Source of the DNA: Gemmatimonadaceae bacterium
GTDB taxonomy: Bacteria > Gemmatimonadota > Gemmatimonadetes > Gemmatimonadales > Gemmatimonadaceae
Assembly (NCBI GenBank): GCA_036504815.1
Contig: DASXUN010000021.1
Location: 62,001-126,000 of the forward strand
Direction: 5' to 3'
DNA: 64,000 nt
Shown piece by piece: positions 41,716 to 54,431 of the stretch (position 1 is its first letter; every line of letters begins with the position of its first letter). The notes under the pieces were generated by a model. That model saw only the letters and a program-made list of their open reading frames with translations, was not told the origin of the DNA and did not search any database. Position numbers and translations under genes: made by a program.

Positions 41716-41798
41716 TGCCAACACTATAGTTGTGCCTAGCGTAATTGGCCGAGGATCCATCCACTCGTTCCACGTCTGTTCCTTCAGCCCTCACACCC

Positions 41799-44700
41799 AT
41801 GAGATCTGTCCTGAGACTGGTTGTCCTGAGTGCAGCTGCCGCGGCGCCGCTTGCCGCCCAGCTCGACTCGGCGACCATCGCCGGCTTCCGCTGGCGCAAC
41901 ATCGGCCCGGCCAATCATCAGGGACGCATCGTGGACGTCGCCGGCATTCCGTGGCCGTCGCGCACGTATTACGTCTCGTCCGCTGGCGGTGGCCTCTGGA
42001 AGACCACCAACGCCGGCACCTCCTTCCGTCCGGTCTTCGAGAACGAGCGCGTTTCGTCGGGTGGCATGATCGCCATCGCCCCGTCGGACACCAACACCGT
42101 GTACTACGGCACGGGCGAACCGAACTCGCGCAACTCCATCTCCCCGGGCGCGGGCATCTGGAAGACGGCCAACGGCGGCCGCACGTGGGAGTTTCTCGGC
42201 CTCAAGGAAACGCAGCACATTGGCCGCGTTGTCGTGGACCCGGCCAACAAGGACGTCGTGTACGTCGCCGCGCTCGGCGCGGCCTGGGCGACCAACAAGG
42301 AACGCGGGCTCTACAAGTCCGTGGACGGCGGCAAGACGTGGCAGCTGAAGAAGTTCATCAACGACAGCACCGGCTTCATCGACGTCGCCCTCGATCCACG
42401 TGACTCGAAGGTCGTGTGGGCAGCCAGCTACCAGCGCATCCGCGGCCCGTACTTCCAGTACTCGGGAGGCAAGGGCTCGGCGCTGTGGAAGAGCACCGAC
42501 GCCGGCGAGACGTGGACCGAAGTGAAGGGCGGCGGTCTGCCGGAGACGACGAAGGGGCGCATCGGCATCGCCATCGCCGCGTCGAATCCCGACGTCATAT
42601 ACCTGATGGTCGAAGCCGACACGCTGGCGAACCCCAAGAAGGATCCCAAGGTCAAGGCGCAGAAATCGCCGAGCGGACTGTATCGCTCAGCCGATGGCGG
42701 CAAGACGTGGGAGAAGCGGAACGACGAGAACGTCCGTCCGTTCTACTACTCGCAGGTGCGCGTCGCGCCGAACAATCCGGATCGCGTCTTCTGGTCGTCG
42801 ACGCCGGTGAAGTACTCCAACGATGGCGGCAAGACGGTCGGCAACGCGACGGTCGGCATCCACGTCGATCACCACGCGATGTGGATTGACCCCAAGGATC
42901 CGCAGCACATCGTCGTCGGCAACGACGGCGGCGTCTCGCAGACCTGGGACGGCGGCGGCAATTGGGACGCCAACAACGTGCTCCCGGTGGGCCAGTACTA
43001 CAACGTGTCGGTGGACAACGCGGTGCCCTACAACGTCTGCGGTGGCGCGCAGGACAACGGCTCGTGGTGCGGACCGTCGCGCCGCAAGCAGGGAATGATC
43101 ACCAACTCGATGTGGTTCACGTTCAATGGCGGCGACGGCTTCGTCACCGCGAACGACCCGACGAACCCCGACATCATCTACGGCGAGTCGCAGGGCGGCA
43201 ACATCGGCCGCTATCGCGTCTCGACGGGTGAGCGCACCGCGCTGGTGAAGCCGAGCTGGCGTCCGCGCTACATGCAGTGGGAAGACTCCATTCTCGTCGA
43301 CCGGCCCGACACCACCAAGCCGATGTCGAAGGAGCAGGCCAAGCGGCAGCAGGCGCTGCGCGCGGCCCAGAAGAGGGATTCCGTTGACACCGACATCCGG
43401 TGGAACTGGAACACGCCGTTCTTCATCTCGCCGCACAACGCGTCGGTCATGTATTTCGGCGCCAACCGCGTGCTGAAGTCCACGAAGCAGGGCGATGACA
43501 TGTATTTCATCTCGCCCGAGCTGTCGTATGCCGACACGATGAAGATCCGCGTCTCCACCAAGACGACGGGCGGCATCACGATCGATGCGACGGGCGCCGA
43601 GACTTTTGGCACCATCGTTTCGATCAACGAATCGCCGCTGCGCCCCGGCATCCTGTACGCCGGCACGGACGATGGCCGCCTCTGGTCGTCGCTGAACGAC
43701 GGCGGCAGCTGGACGGAGCACACCGCCAACGTGAAGGGCGTGCCGGCCGGAACGTACGTGTCGCGCATTGAGCCGTCGCATTTCGACTCGCTCACCTTCT
43801 ACGTGACGTACGACAACCATCGCCGCGGCGACTTTACGCCCTACGTCTTCATGACAAAGGACGGCGGCAAGACGTTCGCGTCGATCGCCGGCAACCTGCC
43901 GACGGGCGGCCCGGACTACGTCTACGTGATCCGCGAGGATCTCAAGAACCAGAACCTGCTGTTCGTCGGCACCGACGTCGGCGTGTACGCGTCGCTCGAC
44001 GCCGGCAAGTCGTGGACCAAGTTCATGGCCGGTATGCCCACGCTGCCGGTGCTGGACCTTGTCATTCATCCGCGCGATGGCGAACTCGTGGCCGCGACGC
44101 ACGGCCGCGGCTTCTACATCGTCGACATCAATGCGCTGCGGCAGATGGATGCGACGGTGGCCTCCGCGCCGGCGTATCTCTTCAAGCCGCGCACCGCATT
44201 CCAGTGGGGGGAGAAGCCCTTCAACGGGGAGTCGGTCGGCCAGAACCTGTTCCAGGTGCCGAGTCCGGCGTACGGCGCCGAGATCGTGTACAGGCTGGCG
44301 AAGGCGAACACGGGTCAGGTAAAGGTGGTGATCCAGGACGCCTCGGGTGACACCCTGCGCACGCTGAACGGCCCGGGTGCGGCCGGCATCCAGCGCGTCA
44401 CGTGGGACTTCCGCGGCAAGGCGCCGCCGTCGCCCAAGCTGTCGCCGGCTGAAGTGCGCGATTCCATCAACAACATCCGCAAGATCGTCGCGGCGCTCGA
44501 TTCCATCGCCGCCGATAGCACGTCGACGTTGCCCAAGCCCATGCTCGAGCGGATCCGCACGGGCCTCACCGGCGGCCCGGATGCCATGCAGCAGATGATC
44601 CAGCAGTTCGGCGCGTTCGGCGGGGGCGGCGGATTCGGTGGCCAGCCCATGCGTTGGCAGGACCGTCCGGGTGAGACGCCGGCAGCGGCACCGCGTCCGG

Positions 44701-45005
44701 CAGGCGCAGGGGGCGGTCGTGCGCAGGCCGGCCAGGCGGAGAGCGGAGCGGCCCCGGATCAGAGCCAGTTGATGGGCGTCTTCCAGGCGATCGCCGGACG
44801 CGGCGCTGGCGGCATGTTCGCCATGTTCGGCGGCGGTGGCCGTCGGGGTGGCGGTGGCGCCCCGTTTGTCGGCACGGGCGACTACCTGGTGTCGATCAGC
44901 GTCGGGGGCCAGACGTACAAGCAGGTGCTGCGCGTCGAGCGCATCAGCGGTGGCGGCGGCAGCGGCTTCCCGTTCGAGGACGATGACGAGGAGCGGGAGC
45001 CCTAA
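41799..45005 (+). CDS. Large secreted BNR/sortilin-type beta-propeller protein
   Basis: A 1068-residue exported protein. After a signal peptide (to about 20, PLAAQ) it is built of many BNR/VPS10-like units with the Asp-box look: GGLWKTTNAGTSF, GIWKTANGGRTW, GLYKSVDGGKTW, ALWKSTDAGETW, GLYRSADGGKTW and more, predicting one or two propellers up to about residue 790. The C-terminal part includes a FlgD-like beta domain and a Gly/Pro/Ala-rich insert (about 935-1000) of low complexity. Such proteins are abundant in Gemmatimonadota and Bacteroidota and may bind or process glycans or peptides; no catalytic residues can be named. The ATG at 41799 starts the signal peptide. Confidence 0.85.
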   Translation: MRSVLRLVVLSAAAAAPLAAQLDSATIAGFRWRNIGPANHQGRIVDVAGIPWPSRTYYVSSAGGGLWKTTNAGTSFRPVFENERVSSGGMIAIAPSDTNTVYYGTGEPNSRNSISPGAGIWKTANGGRTWEFLGLKETQHIGRVVVDPANKDVVYVAALGAAWATNKERGLYKSVDGGKTWQLKKFINDSTGFIDVALDPRDSKVVWAASYQRIRGPYFQYSGGKGSALWKSTDAGETWTEVKGGGLPETTKGRIGIAIAASNPDVIYLMVEADTLANPKKDPKVKAQKSPSGLYRSADGGKTWEKRNDENVRPFYYSQVRVAPNNPDRVFWSSTPVKYSNDGGKTVGNATVGIHVDHHAMWIDPKDPQHIVVGNDGGVSQTWDGGGNWDANNVLPVGQYYNVSVDNAVPYNVCGGAQDNGSWCGPSRRKQGMITNSMWFTFNGGDGFVTANDPTNPDIIYGESQGGNIGRYRVSTGERTALVKPSWRPRYMQWEDSILVDRPDTTKPMSKEQAKRQQALRAAQKRDSVDTDIRWNWNTPFFISPHNASVMYFGANRVLKSTKQGDDMYFISPELSYADTMKIRVSTKTTGGITIDATGAETFGTIVSINESPLRPGILYAGTDDGRLWSSLNDGGSWTEHTANVKGVPAGTYVSRIEPSHFDSLTFYVTYDNHRRGDFTPYVFMTKDGGKTFASIAGNLPTGGPDYVYVIREDLKNQNLLFVGTDVGVYASLDAGKSWTKFMAGMPTLPVLDLVIHPRDGELVAATHGRGFYIVDINALRQMDATVASAPAYLFKPRTAFQWGEKPFNGESVGQNLFQVPSPAYGAEIVYRLAKANTGQVKVVIQDASGDTLRTLNGPGAAGIQRVTWDFRGKAPPSPKLSPAEVRDSINNIRKIVAALDSIAADSTSTLPKPMLERIRTGLTGGPDAMQQMIQQFGAFGGGGGFGGQPMRWQDRPGETPAAAPRPAGAGGGRAQAGQAESGAAPDQSQLMGVFQAIAGRGAGGMFAMFGGGGRRGGGGAPFVGTGDYLVSISVGGQTYKQVLRVERISGGGGSGFPFEDDDEEREP

Positions 45006-45135: not shown

Positions 45136-47292
45136 CTAGTACCGCAGGTACTGCACATACTTCACCACCACCCCGCCTCGTGAGGGCCGCGACCACGGGA
45201 TCGAGCGTCCCTCGAGGGACGTCGGCCACGCACTGTTCAACACGACATACAGATCGCTCCCCGGCGAGCGGGTCCAGCGAAGGCGCGCATTCAGGGCCCC
45301 GCGATTGGACTCATTGTTCCACTGGGCGAAGAGCGTCGTATTGAGCCGCGGGGTCAGGGCGTAGTCGATGCGAGCGGTGGTCGTTCGCGCGATGAATCGC
45401 GACGAGGGGAAGCGGCCATCGGTGTAGCCGTACTCCAGCGACCAGAGCACGTGCGGCTGCCAGCGTCCCTCGACGGACACTCGGTAGTCCTCGCCGACGC
45501 CGGTGTAGAACTCCCCGAAGCTTGCTTCGACGTTCAGGCGCAGCGGACGGCGTGACGATCCATCGTACTCGAAGCCCCAGCGATCGTACCAGTAATTGCC
45601 TGGGGTGATCGTCGTCCCGTCGAACACGTCGAAGGACTCGAGCGGTGCGTCTCCCTGACGCTGCAGGTTCACCTGAAACTCGTCGCCCGAGCTGAACCTC
45701 ACGCCGAACGGCGTGACCTCGAACGAGGCGTTGTCCATGCTGCCGTCCAGGCGCCGGACGTACTGGTAGTTCAGGAGGTTGAACTCGAGTTGGCGGACAT
45801 GCGGTATGTGCGGCCGTGGCGTGATTCGGAAGGACCCGCCATACCGCACGATGCCGTCGGAGCGGACAAAACCCAGCGCCGGGTTGAACCCGGCTTCCAC
45901 GCGCTCGATGCGATTGACGATGTCGGCGAAGTCGTTCGGGAAGTCGATGGCAAAACGCGAGTAGTTGGGCGCCCCGCCGGTGCTGTCGTGCGTCCATGAC
46001 GTTGCCGCGAGGAAGACGAGGTTCTGTCCGCGCACGATGAACGGCAGGTTGATGTCCAGTCCCGTCGCGGTGGACGGCTGCTCACCGCGCGCATCCGTGC
46101 CCGTGAACATCGCGCCCACATAGCCGCGCCCCAGCAGGTCGCGTCGCACGCGGACCACCGCGTCCGAGGTTGGGCGGTCGCCGCCGGTGCGCACCGCGAT
46201 CACGCCCACTTGCTGGCTTCCGATGCGCCCTGACAGCCGCGCCCCCGCCTGGAGGGGAATCGGTTCGCCGTCACGCGAGAGCCCGATCCGCCGGCTGTAG
46301 AACAATTGGGTCTCCTGCGGGCGGCCGAAGTCGAAGATCCCCGCGCCTTCGGTGAAGAAGGGGCGCCGCTCGGGAAGGAAGAGCGGGAATCGGCTGAAGT
46401 TGATGATCTGCCGGTCCACGTCCGCCTGGGCGAAGTCGGCGTTGGTGGTGAGGTCGAGCGTCAACCCGCGTGACGGGGCGAGCTTGGCATCGAGTCCGAA
46501 GGCGCCCTTCAGCCCGGCCTCGCCAGCGGCGCTGAACGTGCCATCTGGCGAGTACGCGCGCGTCGTCCCGTTTCCCGTGGCCGACGCGTACGGCCGCAGC
46601 TCCACCGTCGCGCGCGGCGGGAGGTCGTTGAATCCTTCCACCTCGCCAGCCTTCTCGAGGAACTTGAGCCCCTCGGTTCGCCGCCAGGCTTTCCACAGCA
46701 CCTCTTCGTTCTTTCGCCGGATCACGCGCAGCACGTTCACATCCCACGAGGTTGCGCTCGCCCGATATCGCAGCGTCTGCCACGGAATGAAGATCTCCGC
46801 CACCCAGCCATCGGCGGTGATTGCGGCCCGGGAGTCCCAGACGGCATCCCAGTTGATGTTGTCGTGCTCGAACGACACCACCTCGCCATCCGTCATCGCG
46901 CCGTTGGGATTGACCGCGAACCAGAACGCCGTGCGCTTGTCCTGCAGCGGGGAGAGCAGCACCTGCACGCCGTCGTCCGTCTCTAACTCGGTGTCTCTCC
47001 GCAGCTGCGCGTGCAGGATCCGCGACGGCTCGCGATCGTAGGCGTGAACGCCCACCCACAGTCCGTCGTGCGCCGCGATGAACCGTACGACCGTGCGCTC
47101 GGTGGCCGGCGCACCCTCCACCGGATCGCGCTGCCGGAAGTCATCGATGCTGTCGGCGCGCGACCAGGCCGCCTCATCGAGCCGGCCGTCGAGTTTCAGG
47201 GCATCACGCGTCGCGTGAACACGAGGCGTTTGAGCGAAGGCGACTATCGGCAGCGTCGCGAGCAGCAGCGCCAGCAGACGGGGATTGATCAT
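45136..47292 (-). CDS. DUF5916 outer-membrane protein with CBM9-like N-terminal domain
   Basis: A 718-residue exported protein. The signal peptide (to about 20, AFAQ) is followed by a carbohydrate-binding family 9-like domain (LDGRLDEAAWSRADSIDDF through WVAEIFIPWQTLRY, about 28-190). The remainder is the DUF5916 region, rich in amphipathic strands (RPFFTEGAGIFDFGRPQ, LDLTTNADFAQ) and ending in an aromatic VQYLRY, consistent with an outer-membrane barrel. Function is unknown; the family is common in Gemmatimonadota and Bacteroidota. The ATG at 47292 is preferred over a TTG two codons upstream. Confidence 0.87.
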   Translation of the reverse strand: MINPRLLALLLATLPIVAFAQTPRVHATRDALKLDGRLDEAAWSRADSIDDFRQRDPVEGAPATERTVVRFIAAHDGLWVGVHAYDREPSRILHAQLRRDTELETDDGVQVLLSPLQDKRTAFWFAVNPNGAMTDGEVVSFEHDNINWDAVWDSRAAITADGWVAEIFIPWQTLRYRASATSWDVNVLRVIRRKNEEVLWKAWRRTEGLKFLEKAGEVEGFNDLPPRATVELRPYASATGNGTTRAYSPDGTFSAAGEAGLKGAFGLDAKLAPSRGLTLDLTTNADFAQADVDRQIINFSRFPLFLPERRPFFTEGAGIFDFGRPQETQLFYSRRIGLSRDGEPIPLQAGARLSGRIGSQQVGVIAVRTGGDRPTSDAVVRVRRDLLGRGYVGAMFTGTDARGEQPSTATGLDINLPFIVRGQNLVFLAATSWTHDSTGGAPNYSRFAIDFPNDFADIVNRIERVEAGFNPALGFVRSDGIVRYGGSFRITPRPHIPHVRQLEFNLLNYQYVRRLDGSMDNASFEVTPFGVRFSSGDEFQVNLQRQGDAPLESFDVFDGTTITPGNYWYDRWGFEYDGSSRRPLRLNVEASFGEFYTGVGEDYRVSVEGRWQPHVLWSLEYGYTDGRFPSSRFIARTTTARIDYALTPRLNTTLFAQWNNESNRGALNARLRWTRSPGSDLYVVLNSAWPTSLEGRSIPWSRPSRGGVVVKYVQYLRY

Positions 47293-47367
47293 ACCCAATT
47301 TACGGGCCGCCGACGCATCTGTTGATCGAACGGCCCTTGGTCCGTATCACCTGGTGCGTGGCGGCGC

Positions 47368-48963
47368 CTACGGCAGGACGACGAGCCGCACCACCGGAGA
47401 TGCCACGCCGGCCCGATCCAGCGCCGTCACTACAAGCCGGTCCGGAAGAACGCCTTCACGGTTGGGGATGATCTGCTCGGCCGTCAGGCTCGGCGTATAC
47501 ATGCGGCTCGTCCAGATGCCGCTGATGCGCGATTGCACCAGGTACCAGCGCGCGACATGCGGCTTGGGAAGCGCAAGGGCCACCGACAATCCGCCGGTCG
47601 CCGTGTTCTTCCTGACGCGAACGGTCGGCGCCGGCAGCGCGCGCTTCGACAGCCACGGCGACGGCGGCACGAGCGCCACCTCAGCATAGGGCTGTGCGAG
47701 CAGCCGCGAGCCGACTCCCGCCTGATCGTTCATGAAGGCCTTCATCGAGAAGTGCACGGTGCCCGAAGCGCGCGGATAGGCGCGCACGGTGTCCACCTGC
47801 GCCAGGATCTCATCCGCGGTCCACGCGTTCGACGGCGAGAGTCCGTTCCCCTCCGGTGTTGCGGCTTTCACCCGGCTCGTGTACAGGCCAAGCCAGAGAT
47901 GGCGCTCGCTGGCGTTCTGCTCGCCCCACCAGCGCATGAGCGCCGGAAAGCTCTGTTCCGGTTTCGCGATCGGCCAGTAGAGCTGCGGCGTGAAGTAGTC
48001 CACCCAATTCTTCTCCCACCACAGCTTCGAATCCGCGTACAGCTGTTCGTACGCATCAAATCCCTTCACCTGCTCCGGGAAGCCCGGCCGCCAGATGCCG
48101 AATGGCGAGATGCCGAACTTCACCCACGGCTTGGCGGCGTGGATCTGTTCGTTCAGCTGACGCACCAGCGTGTTCACGTTCTCCCGTCGCCAGTCGTCGC
48201 GCGACAGCGTGCCCCCGGCGGCGAGGTACTTCTTCCAGCTGCGCGCGTCCGGGAACTCGGTGGTGCCGTTGGCGGTGCGTTCCTTGTACGGATAGAAGTA
48301 GTCGTCCAGGTGCACGCCATCGATGTCGTAGCGCCGCACCACGTCGAGCACCACGCGCAGCGTGCGCTTCCGCACGGCGCTCTCGCCCGGGTCCATCCAC
48401 AGGTGCGTGCCGTACTTCTTGACCAACGCCGGCGCCGTGTTGGCCAGATGGCGCCGTGACAGCGGCCCCTTGGCGCTGGGATGCCGTGCCCGGTACGGAT
48501 TGAACCAGGTGTGCAGCTCGAGGCCGCGCCGGTGCGCCTCGGTCACCGCGAACGCGAGCGGATCCCACGCCGGCGATGGCGCGCGCCCCTGCCGGCCCGT
48601 GAGATACTCCGACCATGGTTCGATGCGGCTCTTGTACAGCGCATCGGCGGCGGGTCGCACCTGCAGGATGACCGCGTTGAGGTGCTGTGCCTGCGTCCGG
48701 TCCAGGATGGCCAGCAACTCGGCCTGCTGCTCCGCTGTCGACAGTCCGGGCTTCGACGGCCAGTCGATGTTCGACACGGCGGCCACCCACACCCCGCGGA
48801 ACTCGCGGCGCATCTCCGGCGCGGCGCAACTGGTATCGGCGGTCCCGCACGGCACCGCGACCGCCGCCGGTGGCGGCGACGTACGCTTGCGGACTGACGT
48901 TTGCGGTGCCTGCGCGGCGAGCGGCAGGGCGATGAGAAGCAGCACGAGGGAGGTCGGTCGCAT
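47368..48963 (-). CDS. Secreted family 10 glycosyl hydrolase-like protein (GHL10/DUF187)
   Basis: A 531-residue exported protein: signal peptide (1-18), a Pro/Lys linker, then the GHL10 barrel with REFRGVWVAAVSNIDWPS, LNAVILQVRPAADALY, HTWFNPYRARH, IDGVHLDDYFYPY and KFGISPFGIWRPG. This is the canonical YngK-like form and is closer to the family consensus than the lipoprotein at 32.3 kb. A C-terminal beta domain (about 430-531) follows. Likely acts on wall or exopolysaccharide glycans. It is read in the same direction as the DUF5916 gene, 75 bases upstream of it. Confidence 0.88.
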   Translation of the reverse strand: MRPTSLVLLLIALPLAAQAPQTSVRKRTSPPPAAVAVPCGTADTSCAAPEMRREFRGVWVAAVSNIDWPSKPGLSTAEQQAELLAILDRTQAQHLNAVILQVRPAADALYKSRIEPWSEYLTGRQGRAPSPAWDPLAFAVTEAHRRGLELHTWFNPYRARHPSAKGPLSRRHLANTAPALVKKYGTHLWMDPGESAVRKRTLRVVLDVVRRYDIDGVHLDDYFYPYKERTANGTTEFPDARSWKKYLAAGGTLSRDDWRRENVNTLVRQLNEQIHAAKPWVKFGISPFGIWRPGFPEQVKGFDAYEQLYADSKLWWEKNWVDYFTPQLYWPIAKPEQSFPALMRWWGEQNASERHLWLGLYTSRVKAATPEGNGLSPSNAWTADEILAQVDTVRAYPRASGTVHFSMKAFMNDQAGVGSRLLAQPYAEVALVPPSPWLSKRALPAPTVRVRKNTATGGLSVALALPKPHVARWYLVQSRISGIWTSRMYTPSLTAEQIIPNREGVLPDRLVVTALDRAGVASPVVRLVVLP

Positions 48964-49031: not shown

Positions 49032-49814
49032 CTACCCTCGCCTCGGCCCCCACGGGAAGAACGCCGACACGTCGCGCTGATAGGCGCGGTAGGCCTCCCC
49101 TTTGGTCGCAACCGCTTGCTTCTCCGTGAGTGGAATCCCCGTCACGCGCAGCAGGAAATAGAGCATCAGTATTGGAGCGCTCCAGCCCACCCACCCCCAC
49201 GGCGCCCCGCTCGCCATCAACGCGAACGCGATCCAGATCAGCCACTCGAAGAAGTAATTGGGATGCCGCGACACGCTCCACAACCCGATGCGGCAGACGC
49301 GTCCGCGGTGCGCGGGATCGCGTTTGAAGCGGGCCAGCTGCGCATCGGCGACGCTCTCCCCGCCCAACGCGATCGCCCAGAGCATCAGCCCCGCGAGTTC
49401 CAGCGGCCGGCCGAAGGGCGCGGCGTCCAGCGCCATCAGCAGGAACGGAACGCTCAGCACGACATCCACGACTGCTTGAAGCATGAAGAATCGCAGGAAG
49501 CGCCGCGCGAGCTTGCCTCCCCACTCCGCACGCAACGCCACGTAGCGCGGATCTTCCGGACCGCGCATCACGCGTACGGCAATGTGCGCCGCGAGCCGAG
49601 CCCCCCACAGGCCGCCGACGACGGCGACCACGGCGCGACGCGTTGCGTCGCCCGACAGGAAGACGGCGTAGCCGAAAGTGATTACCGCCAGGTTGCCGGC
49701 CCAGAATGCGTCCACCCAGCTCGCCTTGTCCGTGACCCGGTAGAGCTGCCACGCGACCAGCATCAGCCCTCCGGCAACTCCCAGGGCGGCGACGAGCGCC
49801 ATGCCTGCTTCCAT
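49032..49814 (-). CDS. DUF1295 (steroid 5-alpha-reductase-like) membrane protein
   Basis: A 260-residue inner-membrane protein with six to seven helices. The C-terminal signature GLWSVSRHPNYFFEWLIW and the late GIPLTEKQAVATKGEAYRAY match DUF1295, related to steroid 5-alpha-reductases and isoprenylcysteine methyltransferases. Substrate unknown, probably a lipid. The ATG at 49814 is used; another at 49802 would shorten it by four residues. It is divergent from the multidomain fusion gene, sharing a 106-base intergenic region. Confidence 0.85.
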   Translation of the reverse strand: MEAGMALVAALGVAGGLMLVAWQLYRVTDKASWVDAFWAGNLAVITFGYAVFLSGDATRRAVVAVVGGLWGARLAAHIAVRVMRGPEDPRYVALRAEWGGKLARRFLRFFMLQAVVDVVLSVPFLLMALDAAPFGRPLELAGLMLWAIALGGESVADAQLARFKRDPAHRGRVCRIGLWSVSRHPNYFFEWLIWIAFALMASGAPWGWVGWSAPILMLYFLLRVTGIPLTEKQAVATKGEAYRAYQRDVSAFFPWGPRRG

Positions 49815-49920: not shown

Positions 49921-52773
49921 ATGATCCATCATCGCTCCGTGCTGGCCCTCTGCAGCGTCGTGCTGGCGCTCTCGTGCACTCGCGGCCCGATCGGCCGCAC
50001 CGTGCCCACGCGCTCGCAGGTCGGCCCCGCCACGGGCTCGCTTGTCGTGGTGGGTGGCGGAAACATGGGTCCCGAAATCCTCCAGCGTTTCGTGGCGCTT
50101 GCCGGCGGACCGGACGCTCCGATTGTCGTCATTCCCACCGCTGGCGAAGATTCGGTCTATCCGGCCGACTGGCGCGGCCTGGCCGGCCTGCGGGCTGCCG
50201 GCGCCACCAACCTGACCGTCCTGCATACAATGGACCGTCGCCTCGCGGAAAGCGACTCATTCGTCGCCCCGATTCGTGCGGCGCGTGGCGTCTGGTTCCC
50301 GGGAGGGCGCCAATGGCGCCTCGTCGACGCCTACCTCGGCACACGTACGGAGCGCGAGCTGCGCGCCGTGCTCGGTCGCGGCGGTGTCATTGGTGGCACG
50401 TCGGCCGGCGCTTCGATCTTGTCGAGCTACCTCGTGCGCGGTGCCCGTTCGGGCAACAACATCATGATGGCCAAGGGGTACGAGCAGGGCTTCGGATGCC
50501 TGCGCAATACCGCCATTGACCAGCATGTCGTGGCCCGCAACCGGCAGAACGACCTGCAGCAGGTCGTCACCGCCCACCCGGAACTGCTCGGCATCGGCCT
50601 CGACGAGGGAACCGCCCTCGTCGTGCAGGGTGACCGCGGAGAGATCATCGGTCGAGGCAAGGCATTCGTGCATAACGGACGCGATGCCAATGATCCGGGC
50701 TATCCCTACCTCACGCTGCTCCCCGGCGATGAATACGACCTCGCGTCCCGGCGCGTGACGGCGCGGGCAGCAGCAGGGAGCCCGCTGACCGAGGCATTCG
50801 TTGACTCGCTGTTCGCCGATTTCAACACACCGGCGACGCCCGGAGCGGCCGTCCTGGTGGCGATGGACGGGAAGGTGCTCATCAGCAAGGGCTACGGTCT
50901 GGCCGACCTTGAAGCGCGCACGCCCATCACGCCGCACACGAACTTCCGGCTCGCCTCGGTGACCAAGCAGTTCACCGCCATGGCGACCCTGCTGCTCGTG
51001 CAGGAGGGGAAGCTGCGCCTGGATGAGACGCTGACCGACATCTTCCCCGGCTTCCCTGCGTACGGCAGCCGCATCACCGTGCGTCACCTGCTGACGCACA
51101 CCAGCGGCCTCCAGAGCTACGAGGACTTCGTCCCGGACTCGCAGGCCACGCAGGTGCTCGATGCGGACGTCCTGCGTCAGATGACCGCCCTCGATTCGAC
51201 GTACTTCCCGCCCGGAACGCGGTTTCGCTACAGCAACTCCGGCTACGCGGTGCTCGCGATGATCGTCGAACGACGGTCGGGACAGCGGTTCGCCGACTTC
51301 CTCAAGGCGCGCATCTTCGACCGCGTCGGCATGCCGTGGACGCTCGCCCGTGAGGAAGGACGCACGCCGGTGCAGCGGCGCGCCTTCGGGCACTCGCGGC
51401 GTAACGGCGCCTGGCTGCGCACCGATCAAAGCAGCACGAGCGCGGTCCTCGGCGACGGCGGCATCTACTCGTCGGTTTCCGAGCTCTACCGCTGGAGCAA
51501 CGCACTGGAGACGCGTGAACTGCTCGGCGATTCGCTGCGCGCCCTGATCTTCCGCCGCGGGACGCGCTCCGACAGCATTGGCGTCGATTACGGCTTCGGC
51601 TGGTACCTCGAGATGACGCATGCGCTGCCGCGCACGCGGCACACCGGCAGCACGATCGGCTTTCGGAATGCCGTCATTCGCTATCCGACGCTGAAGGCCA
51701 CCATCATCGTGCTCACCAACCGCAACAACGCCAACGCCGCCGCGCTCGCCGAGACGATTGCCGAACGTCTCACCGCCGTGCCGCGCGACCCGCGCTGGAT
51801 CCTGCAACCGAGTGGCACCACGGCATCGTTCCGCGGCATCAGCGCGGTCAACGGACTGGTGGCGTGGGCGGGGGGAAGTCGCGGAACGGTGCTGCGCACC
51901 GTCGATGGCGGCGAGTCGTGGGAGGATGTGTCCATTCCGGGCGCCGACTCGCTCGACTTCCGCGACGTGCAGGGCGTCAGCTCGCGTGTCGCCTACGCGA
52001 TGAGCGCCGGCCCGGCCGAGCAGGGGCAGGCCCGCATCTACCGCACCTCCGACGGCGGCCGGAACTGGACGCTGCAGTGGAGCGACACCACCAAGGGCCT
52101 CTTTCTCGACGGCATCGCCTTCTGGGATTCATCGCACGGGTTCGCTTTCAGTGATCCAGTGAATGGCCAGTTTGTCATCCTGCGCACCGAGAACGGCACC
52201 ACGTGGGAGCGGGTCGATCCGCGAAACATCCCACCGGGACTCCCCGGCGAGGCGGCATTCGCGGCCAGTGGTACGTCGGTGGCGGTGCAGGGTCGCAACC
52301 ACGGCTGGATTGCCACGGGCGGCGGTCGCGAGGCGCGCGTGCTGCGCACCGCGGATCGCGGGCGCACCTGGCAGGTCTCCGGCGCCGGCATTCCGGCCGG
52401 ACCCAGCTCCGGCTTCTTCGGCATCGCCTTCGCTGACACCCGTCGCGGCATCGCGGTGGCCGGTGATTACACCGTGTCGCGCAGCAGCGGCGATGTCACG
52501 ATGGTCACCACCGATGGGGGCGTCAGCTGGAAACGCGCCTCGAGGTGGCCATCACAGGGCATTACCGGTGGCGTGGTGGCGGTGCGTGGCGCGGCCAAGC
52601 CGACGTTTGCCGCGGTCGGCGCGTACGGCACGGCGTTCACGAACGATTTCGGCGCCACCTGGACGCACGGGGACACCCTGACGCTCTACACCATCGACTT
52701 CGCCGCGCGCGACACCGGATGGGCGGTTGGCCCCCGCGGCCGCATCGTGAAGTTCAAGGGGAACGCGCCGTGA
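49921..52773 (+). CDS. Three-domain fusion: cyanophycinase-like S51 peptidase, class C beta-lactamase-type hydrolase, Ycf48/BNR propeller
   Basis: A 950-residue exported protein. The signal ends at a possible lipidation Cys19 (LALSC). Domain 1 (about 38-285) is a cyanophycinase-like peptidase: nucleophile Ser161 in GGTSAGAS, His202 in IDQHVVARNRQ, acidic residues in GIGLDEGTALV. Domain 2 (about 290-620) is a penicillin-binding-protein-like serine hydrolase: Ser346-x-x-Lys349 in ASVTKQF, Tyr437-x-Asn439 in RYSNSGY, and HTG at 574-576. Domain 3 (about 630-950) has repeated propeller units such as GTVLRTVDGGESW, RIYRTSDGGRNW and RVLRTADRGRTW, as in Ycf48-like proteins. All catalytic motifs of both enzymes appear intact. 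Its stop overlaps an amidase start (GTGA). The ATG at 49921 starts the signal; the frame extends further up without sense. Role unknown, plausibly hydrolysis of unusual peptides or amides. Confidence 0.88.
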   Translation: MIHHRSVLALCSVVLALSCTRGPIGRTVPTRSQVGPATGSLVVVGGGNMGPEILQRFVALAGGPDAPIVVIPTAGEDSVYPADWRGLAGLRAAGATNLTVLHTMDRRLAESDSFVAPIRAARGVWFPGGRQWRLVDAYLGTRTERELRAVLGRGGVIGGTSAGASILSSYLVRGARSGNNIMMAKGYEQGFGCLRNTAIDQHVVARNRQNDLQQVVTAHPELLGIGLDEGTALVVQGDRGEIIGRGKAFVHNGRDANDPGYPYLTLLPGDEYDLASRRVTARAAAGSPLTEAFVDSLFADFNTPATPGAAVLVAMDGKVLISKGYGLADLEARTPITPHTNFRLASVTKQFTAMATLLLVQEGKLRLDETLTDIFPGFPAYGSRITVRHLLTHTSGLQSYEDFVPDSQATQVLDADVLRQMTALDSTYFPPGTRFRYSNSGYAVLAMIVERRSGQRFADFLKARIFDRVGMPWTLAREEGRTPVQRRAFGHSRRNGAWLRTDQSSTSAVLGDGGIYSSVSELYRWSNALETRELLGDSLRALIFRRGTRSDSIGVDYGFGWYLEMTHALPRTRHTGSTIGFRNAVIRYPTLKATIIVLTNRNNANAAALAETIAERLTAVPRDPRWILQPSGTTASFRGISAVNGLVAWAGGSRGTVLRTVDGGESWEDVSIPGADSLDFRDVQGVSSRVAYAMSAGPAEQGQARIYRTSDGGRNWTLQWSDTTKGLFLDGIAFWDSSHGFAFSDPVNGQFVILRTENGTTWERVDPRNIPPGLPGEAAFAASGTSVAVQGRNHGWIATGGGREARVLRTADRGRTWQVSGAGIPAGPSSGFFGIAFADTRRGIAVAGDYTVSRSSGDVTMVTTDGGVSWKRASRWPSQGITGGVVAVRGAAKPTFAAVGAYGTAFTNDFGATWTHGDTLTLYTIDFAARDTGWAVGPRGRIVKFKGNAP

Positions 52774-54431
52774 CGTATGACCTGAAGGGCGTGCACCTGC
52801 CGGTTCTTGGCCCCACGGGTATTCGGACCATCAATGCGATCACCGGAATTCCGGGATTCGGCTCGCTGCTCATCGGCAAACTGCGTCGCGATGCCGGGCT
52901 CGATGCCCTGCTTCGCACGGTCGTCGACGATCCGCCCACGAATGAGCCGATGCTGCCCGACGTCGCGCCGCCCATCCCCGCGCTCGACGCACGCGCCGAT
53001 GACGCCCGGGCCGGCTTCCGGTTCCCCACCGTTGAGGATTTCCACGCCACCTATCGCAGCGGTGCGCTCACAGCCTTGCAGGTCGCACAGCAGTTCCTGG
53101 CACGGTGGGAATCGAGCGAGCAGGGCGAGCGCCCGCTGCGCGGCTTCATTTCGATGCGCCGCGAGGACATCCTCGCGCAGGCGACCGCATCGACGGAACG
53201 CTGGAAGGCTGGCCAGCCGATCAGTGTCTTCGATGGCGTGCCGGTGGCGGCGAAGGACGAAGTCGACCAGGCCGGATACACCACCACCGTCGGGACGAAG
53301 ATCTTTCGGAATGCGCCGCCCGCCACGCACGACTCGACGGCCGTGGCCCGCCTGCGCGCCGCTGGCGCCGTGATGGTCGGCAAGGCCAACATGCACGAGA
53401 TCGGCATCGGCGTCAGCGGTCACAACGCGCATTACGGCTCGGCGCGCAATCCTTACAACGACCTCCACCACACCGGGGGCAGTTCGGCCGGGCCCGGCTG
53501 TGTGGTCGGCGCGGGACTCGTCCCCGTCGCCATCGGCGCGGACGGCGGTGGATCCATTCGCCTCCCGGCGTCATTCTGCGGCACGGTCGGCCTCAAGCCG
53601 ACCTACGGACGCATTTCGGAGTATGGCGCAGCCCCGCTGTGCTGGTCGCTTGCGTACCTTGGGCCGCTTGCCAGCTGCGCGCGGGATGCGGCCCTTGCGT
53701 ATCAGGTCATGGCCGGGGCGGATGCGCACGATCCGCATTCATTGGGGCATCCGTCGGCGGTCATTGATGATCGCGCGCCGCGGTCGCTCGCCGGCATCAC
53801 GCTGGGCGTGTTCCGCCCCTGGTTCCAGGACGCGCAGCCAGAGGTGGTCGCCGCATGTGAACGGCTGCTCGACGAGATGACGGCATCTGGCGCGCGCCTG
53901 GTTGAGGTCGAGATTCCGGAGCTCGAACTCGCTCGTCTCGCCCATCTCGTGATCATCACTTCCGAGATGACCACGGCGCTCTGGCCGCAGGTGCGCGATC
54001 GGCTGGGCGAGTTCGGCAGCGAGACGCAGCTCAATCTTGCCATCGCCCGGGCATCGACGGCCGCCGAATATGTCCACGCCCAGCGGGTGCGGACGCGCGC
54101 CATCGCGCACGTCGAGCGGGCGTTGGCGCACTGCGACGCCATCATCACCCCGGCCTCGGGCAACACGGCGCCACGTCTGCATCCGTCGGGTGGTGCCGTG
54201 TCAGATCTTGGCCGGTCGATGGAGACCATGCGTTTCGCCTTCCTCACCAACTTGACCGGACATCCCGCCATCTCCTTCCCCGCCGGTTACGGCCGGGCCG
54301 GCCTCCCCATCGGGATGCAGGCGATCGGCCGCGGATGGGGCGAGCAGTTGCTGCTGCGACTGGCCGCTTTTGCCGACACCGTCGTCGAACGCCGCCAGCC
54401 GTCACGGTTCTACCCGCCGATCGGCGGGTAA
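52770..54431 (+). CDS. Amidase signature-family hydrolase
   Basis: A 553-residue amidase. The Ser-cisSer-Lys triad is visible: Lys162 in PVAAKDEVD, the cis-Ser pair Ser238-Ser239 in TGGSSAGPG, and nucleophile Ser262 in GADGGGSIRLP. The usual GGSSGG is GGSSAG here. About 100 residues precede the amidase core, longer than in GatA-type enzymes, and carry no signal peptide. The GTG at 52770 overlaps the stop of the fusion gene by 4 bases, so the two are translated together. It may hydrolyse an amide released by the exported fusion protein after uptake. The exact substrate is unknown. Confidence 0.9.
   Translation: MTYDLKGVHLPVLGPTGIRTINAITGIPGFGSLLIGKLRRDAGLDALLRTVVDDPPTNEPMLPDVAPPIPALDARADDARAGFRFPTVEDFHATYRSGALTALQVAQQFLARWESSEQGERPLRGFISMRREDILAQATASTERWKAGQPISVFDGVPVAAKDEVDQAGYTTTVGTKIFRNAPPATHDSTAVARLRAAGAVMVGKANMHEIGIGVSGHNAHYGSARNPYNDLHHTGGSSAGPGCVVGAGLVPVAIGADGGGSIRLPASFCGTVGLKPTYGRISEYGAAPLCWSLAYLGPLASCARDAALAYQVMAGADAHDPHSLGHPSAVIDDRAPRSLAGITLGVFRPWFQDAQPEVVAACERLLDEMTASGARLVEVEIPELELARLAHLVIITSEMTTALWPQVRDRLGEFGSETQLNLAIARASTAAEYVHAQRVRTRAIAHVERALAHCDAIITPASGNTAPRLHPSGGAVSDLGRSMETMRFAFLTNLTGHPAISFPAGYGRAGLPIGMQAIGRGWGEQLLLRLAAFADTVVERRQPSRFYPPIGG

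Follow-up and report, generated by a model that had tools for sequence, protein, structure and literature searches.

The window, a 64,000-nucleotide stretch of DNA from a 3.5-Mb Gemmatimonadaceae genome, contains an open reading frame at positions 49921–52773 that encodes a 950-residue protein with three domains in the order peptidase S51, S12/beta-lactamase-fold serine hydrolase, and Ycf48-like propeller. The start at 49921 was favored because orthologs align from this position, each with a lipobox (8/8), which makes the longer start at 49801 unneeded. The features of this gene and of the gene that overlaps its end are as follows:

49921–49977, + strand: signal peptide and lipobox LALS/C19; fits the lipobox pattern, with the codon of the predicted lipidated Cys19 at 49975–49977
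50053–50646, + strand: peptidase S51 domain, residues 45–242 (PF03575, E 7.6e-16; top Foldseek match cyanophycinase 7uqv/3en0)
50308–50310, + strand: Arg130, signature residue of the S51 clade; the CphB counterpart is Asp100
50401–50403, + strand: S51 nucleophile Ser161, aligned with CphB Ser132
50524–50526, + strand: S51 triad residue His202, aligned with CphB His174
50551–50553, + strand: Asp211, signature residue of the S51 clade; the CphB counterpart is Arg183
50605–50607, + strand: S51 triad residue Glu229, aligned with CphB Glu201
50803–51771, + strand: S12/beta-lactamase-fold serine hydrolase, residues 295–617 (PF00144, E 9.2e-64)
50956–50967, + strand: S12 motif SVTK (SxxK), residue 346, located by alignment
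51229–51237, + strand: S12 motif YSN (YxN), residue 437, located by alignment
51640–51648, + strand: S12 motif HTG, residue 574, located by alignment
51802–52770, + strand: Ycf48-like BNR propeller, about residues 628–950 (PF14870 and PF02012; Foldseek matches to Ycf48 structures)
52770–54431, + strand: amidase-signature enzyme (PF01425, E 8e-98), whose start codon and the fusion-gene stop overlap in GTGA

The original prediction placed three folds in one chain and proposed profile searches and structure prediction as checks. All three domains exceeded their Pfam gathering scores, with PSII_BNR/Ycf48 found at residues 704–879 in a profile search (E 1.3e-8; PF14870 scored 34.9 bits against a threshold of 27), and the structural models agreed. 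AlphaFold gave a mature-chain model of moderate confidence (mean pLDDT 63.7), in which the S51 domain and the propeller were well folded and the middle was poor, and Foldseek matched this model to cyanophycinase and Ycf48. The S12 domain modeled alone reached a pTM of 0.79 and matched the S12/DD-peptidase fold. Among solved structures, those closest in sequence include LACTB, a Pyrococcus PBP homolog, D-aminopeptidase, and cyanophycinase. Both hydrolase domains keep their key motifs in this protein, as had been claimed: the three S12 motifs listed above and, in the S51 domain, GGTSAGAS at residue 158 (with Ser161) and DQH at residue 200 (with His202). The propeller has five Asp boxes (residues 660, 709, 810, 863, and 907). 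The protein had also been described as exported; this stands, but the LALSC lipobox, a feature found in 8/8 intact-fusion relatives and 4/4 degenerate three-domain proteins, indicates that it is probably a lipoprotein, anchored by lipid rather than freely exported.

The full-length three-domain order recurs across genomes. Scanning genome contigs and whole-genome loci, we found nine unbroken genes in eight Gemmatimonadaceae genomes, seven of them in the genus of the window, where most sampled members keep the three-domain form, and two in a second genus (G063 and G082). The full-length copies from the contig scan, which come from independent metagenome-assembled genomes, are 61–84% identical across the mature chain, and pairwise dN/dS values among the intact fusions are about 0.05–0.15 in all three domains, indicative of purifying selection. 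An assembly join or a frameshift between the domains, the artifact against which the original prediction had warned, is therefore ruled out by the recurrence of the single reading frame in eight genomes and by the constraint on every domain. One genome (G421, loci L041 and L042) carries two three-domain copies, each followed by its own amidase gene. In line with the claim that no described system joins these domains, searches of open-licence papers returned no relevant description of the combination. The domain combination is thus real, conserved, and apparently undescribed, although it is built from known folds.

We assigned the forms of the family by running the three domain profiles on all fetched loci. 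Form C (S51, intact S12, and propeller) is that of the window genus, G063, and G082. Form D, in which the S12 part is degenerate, occurs in four genomes (G235, G294, G317, and G263), and form B, with S51 and a degenerate S12 and no propeller, accounts for 37 genes, 36 from the family of the window and one from a sister family. Form E, an intact S12 with a propeller and no S51, is found in G057 and G315; two further S12-propeller genes (G114 and G402) are truncated at contig ends and were not counted as cases of domain loss. Stand-alone propellers and stand-alone S51 are both common. The SVTK, YSN, and HTG motifs are kept in all intact-fusion relatives, and the SxxK serine, the YxN segment, and HTG are missing in the aligned B and D examples; in a motif test, none of the 41 B and D fusions (37 + 4) has an intact S12 domain. 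PF00144 was still detected in most of the ten B proteins tested, mostly below the cut-off. B and D group together in the S51 tree as a single clade (support 100/99), which the form C proteins of G063 and G082 adjoin; this points to a single loss of the S12 active site. The S12 tree is affected by long branches and was not relied on for placing the degenerate group. Also in the S51 tree, the S51-alone genes of G029 and G155 (loci L119 and L120) are nested among the S51 domains of three-domain proteins, a placement suggesting that their S12 and propeller parts have been lost; a TAG falls inside the terminal portion of the stretch that aligns with the window protein.

Compared with the S51 domain of the same genes, the degenerate S12 part has a rate of evolution 1.2 to 5 times higher, but its dN/dS stays below 0.27, showing that it is still constrained. 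Retained in dozens of genomes after its catalytic motifs had gone, the domain probably also contributes to structure or binding, a function that would outlive the loss of catalysis. The original view of two partnered serine hydrolases therefore holds for the window genus and the two relatives in the second genus, but not for most related fusions, in which the S12 motifs are lost. By comparison, Ser161, His202, and Glu229 are invariant in all 123 members of the S51 clade that we aligned, fused or not, whereas 41 proteins have lost the S12 motifs, which points to S51 as the core of the family.

Most of what is known about S51 enzymes concerns cyanophycinases and aspartyl dipeptidases. We compared the 123 clade members, the window protein included, with 24 canonical S51 proteins from the same bacterial family, several of them encoded beside the cyanophycin synthetase gene cphA, and with CphB structures. 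The window protein belongs to a separate clade (support 100/100) on a stem of 1.37 changes per column, with members in Gemmatimonadota, Acidobacteriota, Bacteroidota, and others. With Synechocystis CphB (PDB 3EN0/7UQW) it shares the fold, the Ser-His-Glu triad, and the equivalents of Gln101, Asp172, Gln173, Arg178, and Arg180, and, like the secreted cyanophycinase CphE, it is exported. Across the clade the equivalents of Asp172, Arg178, and Arg180 are invariant, and those of Gln101 and Gln173 nearly so. The CphB Arg183 position, in contrast, is Asp211 in 123/123 clade members and Arg in 24/24 canonical proteins and the CphB structures, and the residue preceding the Gln101 equivalent is Arg130 in 123/123, whereas position 100 is never Arg in the comparison set. 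Cyanophycinase activity is reported to depend critically on Gln101, Asp172, Gln173, Arg178, Arg180, and Arg183 (Law et al. 2009, cited by PMC3235067). Arg183 alone is no proof of activity, since PDB 7UQV has both Asp100 and Arg183 and is nevertheless labeled a pseudo-CphB by its depositors.

The window protein misses the TIGR02069 equivalog cut-off of 126.6 bits, scoring 118.8 as a protein and 122.5 in the genome search; one Chitinophaga clade member passes it (132.5), which means that the clade is not delimited by this threshold alone. Cyanophycin synthetase was over its cut-off in 26 of 59 genomes of the family, in none of the three window-genus genomes searched, and not in the genome of the window itself; a link between the window gene and cyanophycin was rejected for this last reason. 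In relatives that carry cphA, a different S51 gene of the canonical type is present, and in several of them it lies beside cphA. The proposal that the protein degrades cyanophycin, a beta-Asp-Arg polymer, is thus not upheld, given the Arg183-to-Asp change in 123/123, the missed cut-off, and the missing cphA. Unlike CphB and CphE, the window S51 domain combines the two substitutions with a separate clade and with fusion to S12 and propeller domains; it appears not to be a normal cyanophycinase. The kept pocket and S51 chemistry suggest an aspartyl or beta-aspartyl residue in the substrate, and the changed Arg130/Asp211 pair suggests a substrate other than beta-Asp-Arg.

The second domain has the fold and the SxxK, YxN, and HTG motifs of an S12/PF00144 serine hydrolase, which it shares with the R61 DD-peptidase, D-aminopeptidase (1EI5), ClbP, and LACTB; unlike in those peptidases, it follows an S51 domain in one chain and is degenerate in most fused relatives. 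It scored below every NCBIfam cut-off shown, its best match being D-aminopeptidase (NF009622, 129.1 bits against a cut-off of 443). The S12 model matched the R61 DD-peptidase, an FmtA-like protein, D-peptidases, D-aminopeptidase, ClbP, and LACTB, with DD-peptidases and D-peptidases ranking above AmpC. These likenesses suggest D-residues or amides as the target of the domain. Assignment as a class C beta-lactamase was rejected (NF033085, 80.7 against 415 bits; third motif HTG, not KTG).

The propeller shares its BNR fold with the photosystem II assembly factor Ycf48/HCF136 (Foldseek 5OJ3 and 2XBG) and differs from it in scoring 40.7 bits against a cut-off of 326 for the Ycf48 equivalog NF010237 and in being fused to hydrolases. 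In the propeller tree, the window genus lies apart from the second genus, whose unfused propellers branch outside the fused ones, a topology that may reflect repeated fusion or one fusion with later splits. The GTGA overlap at 52770–52773 has counterparts elsewhere: an xTGA overlap with the amidase is found in form C, in three of the four form D loci, in form E, and in two of the three unfused propeller genes with an amidase in the second genus, and is thereby kept across two genera. Since the overlap also occurs at unfused propellers, the propeller-amidase pair predates the fusion or is independent of it; the amidase, which has no visible signal peptide, is tied to the propeller and not to S51, and its link with the peptidase may be incidental.

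Genes on both sides of the fusion gene are syntenic across the window genus, among them DUF5916 and GHL10 (glycosidase-like) genes at 45136–48963 on the − strand, and the conserved neighborhood contains no peptidoglycan genes. Also upstream, at 41745–45005, lies a gene for a Sortilin/VPS10-type BNR propeller protein of 1086 residues. Elsewhere, neighbor analysis of unfused S51 relatives revealed no single common partner. SusC-SusD genes lie beside S51 in Chitinophaga and in a few Gemmatimonadota, the linkage being seen in Bacteroidota and a few Gemmatimonadota only. Four Chitinophaga loci (L106, L108, L110, and L113) have the order SusC-SusD-S51, followed in L110 by a CN_hydrolase (nitrilase-type) gene. 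These loci encode the same S51 clade with the Arg/Asp signature in an envelope context; there, unlike at the window locus, which has no SusCD, S51 is a separate gene. S12 genes near unfused S51 genes come mainly from one acidobacterial lineage and were judged not independent. In Flavilitoribacter nigricans (L115:3907–7802), a member of the same S51 clade is fused to an alpha/beta hydrolase (PF20091), and a gene for a Beta-lactamase2 (PF13354) protein follows. A planctomycetal S51 is fused to an M20 peptidase (L098:5953–8214), with a second, partial copy in L102.

From the anatomy, the conservation, the S12 motif loss in relatives, the clade signature, and the gene overlap, we infer, with a probability of about 45%, that the protein is a lipid-anchored, peptide-scavenging peptidase of the cell envelope with an S51 core, an optional S12 domain, and a propeller scaffold. 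Lipidation at Cys19 would place the chain in the periplasm or on the outer membrane. The conserved catalytic core would be S51, acting through Ser161-His202-Glu229, and its most likely activity is to clip aspartyl or beta-aspartyl units from non-cyanophycin peptides. The intact S12 domain, of the R61 DD-peptidase/D-aminopeptidase type, probably contributes a second activity, against D-amino-acid or amide bonds, and its counterpart in most relatives would serve in structure or binding. The propeller, an old stand-alone protein in this family of bacteria, would have been joined as a C-terminal scaffold, and the translationally coupled amidase would act on imported products. SusC-SusD gene layouts serve outer-membrane oligomer uptake, and the Chitinophaga layout is in keeping with this proposal, as are the S12 fold ranking and the amidase overlap. 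The genome also holds one Asparaginase_2-type gene, of the isoaspartyl peptidase family; it too fits, although such genes are common and prove little. The proposal is weakened by the absence of SusCD at the window locus, the tie of the amidase to the propeller, and the moderate pLDDT, and we found no assayed member of the S51 clade.

Three other explanations draw on the same data. The protein could be an extracellular cyanophycinase for cyanophycin from lake cyanobacteria, whose pocket still binds beta-Asp-Arg with Asp100/Arg183 swapped to Arg130/Asp211. Cyanophycinases are its best structural matches, five of the six critical positions are kept, the Chitinophaga member exceeds the TIGR02069 cut-off, and some close relatives are, by their record titles, of lake metagenome origin. 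However, Arg183, reported as critical (PMC3235067), is Asp throughout the clade, the stem is long and the window protein falls under the cut-off, and in relatives with cphA another, canonical S51 gene is present; we consider this explanation unlikely. A cell-wall enzyme, in which S12 would act as a DD-carboxypeptidase or D-amino-acid amidase on the cell's own or foreign peptidoglycan and S51 would trim the released peptides, is consistent with the closest S12 folds, the HTG motif, and the envelope location given by the lipobox. It is quite improbable, as most relatives lost the S12 motifs but kept S51, and the syntenic genes include none for peptidoglycan.

It is similarly doubtful that the domains work independently of one another and came together by chance at a fusion-prone locus, with propeller and amidase as the older unit and the hydrolases as passengers. 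Propeller-amidase pairs without hydrolases do exist (G168, G307, and G258), as do the S12-propeller genes without S51 and the S51-alone genes nested among fusions, but most sampled members of the window genus keep the three-domain form with equal constraint on all parts, and the degenerate S12 domain has been widely retained. Far more speculatively, and as a long shot, the charge-reversed S51 and a D-specific S12 could form a two-active-site enzyme for peptides mixing beta-aspartyl and D-residues, such as the non-ribosomal peptides of lake cyanobacteria, with the S12 site of the sister lineages having decayed into a substrate-binding pseudoenzyme that serves S51.

Two invariant, charge-reversed residues set this wide S51 clade apart, a caution against naming its members cyanophycinases. 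The natural series of intact, degenerate, and missing S12 domains on the same S51 core offers a direct test bed for the role of a pseudoenzyme domain.
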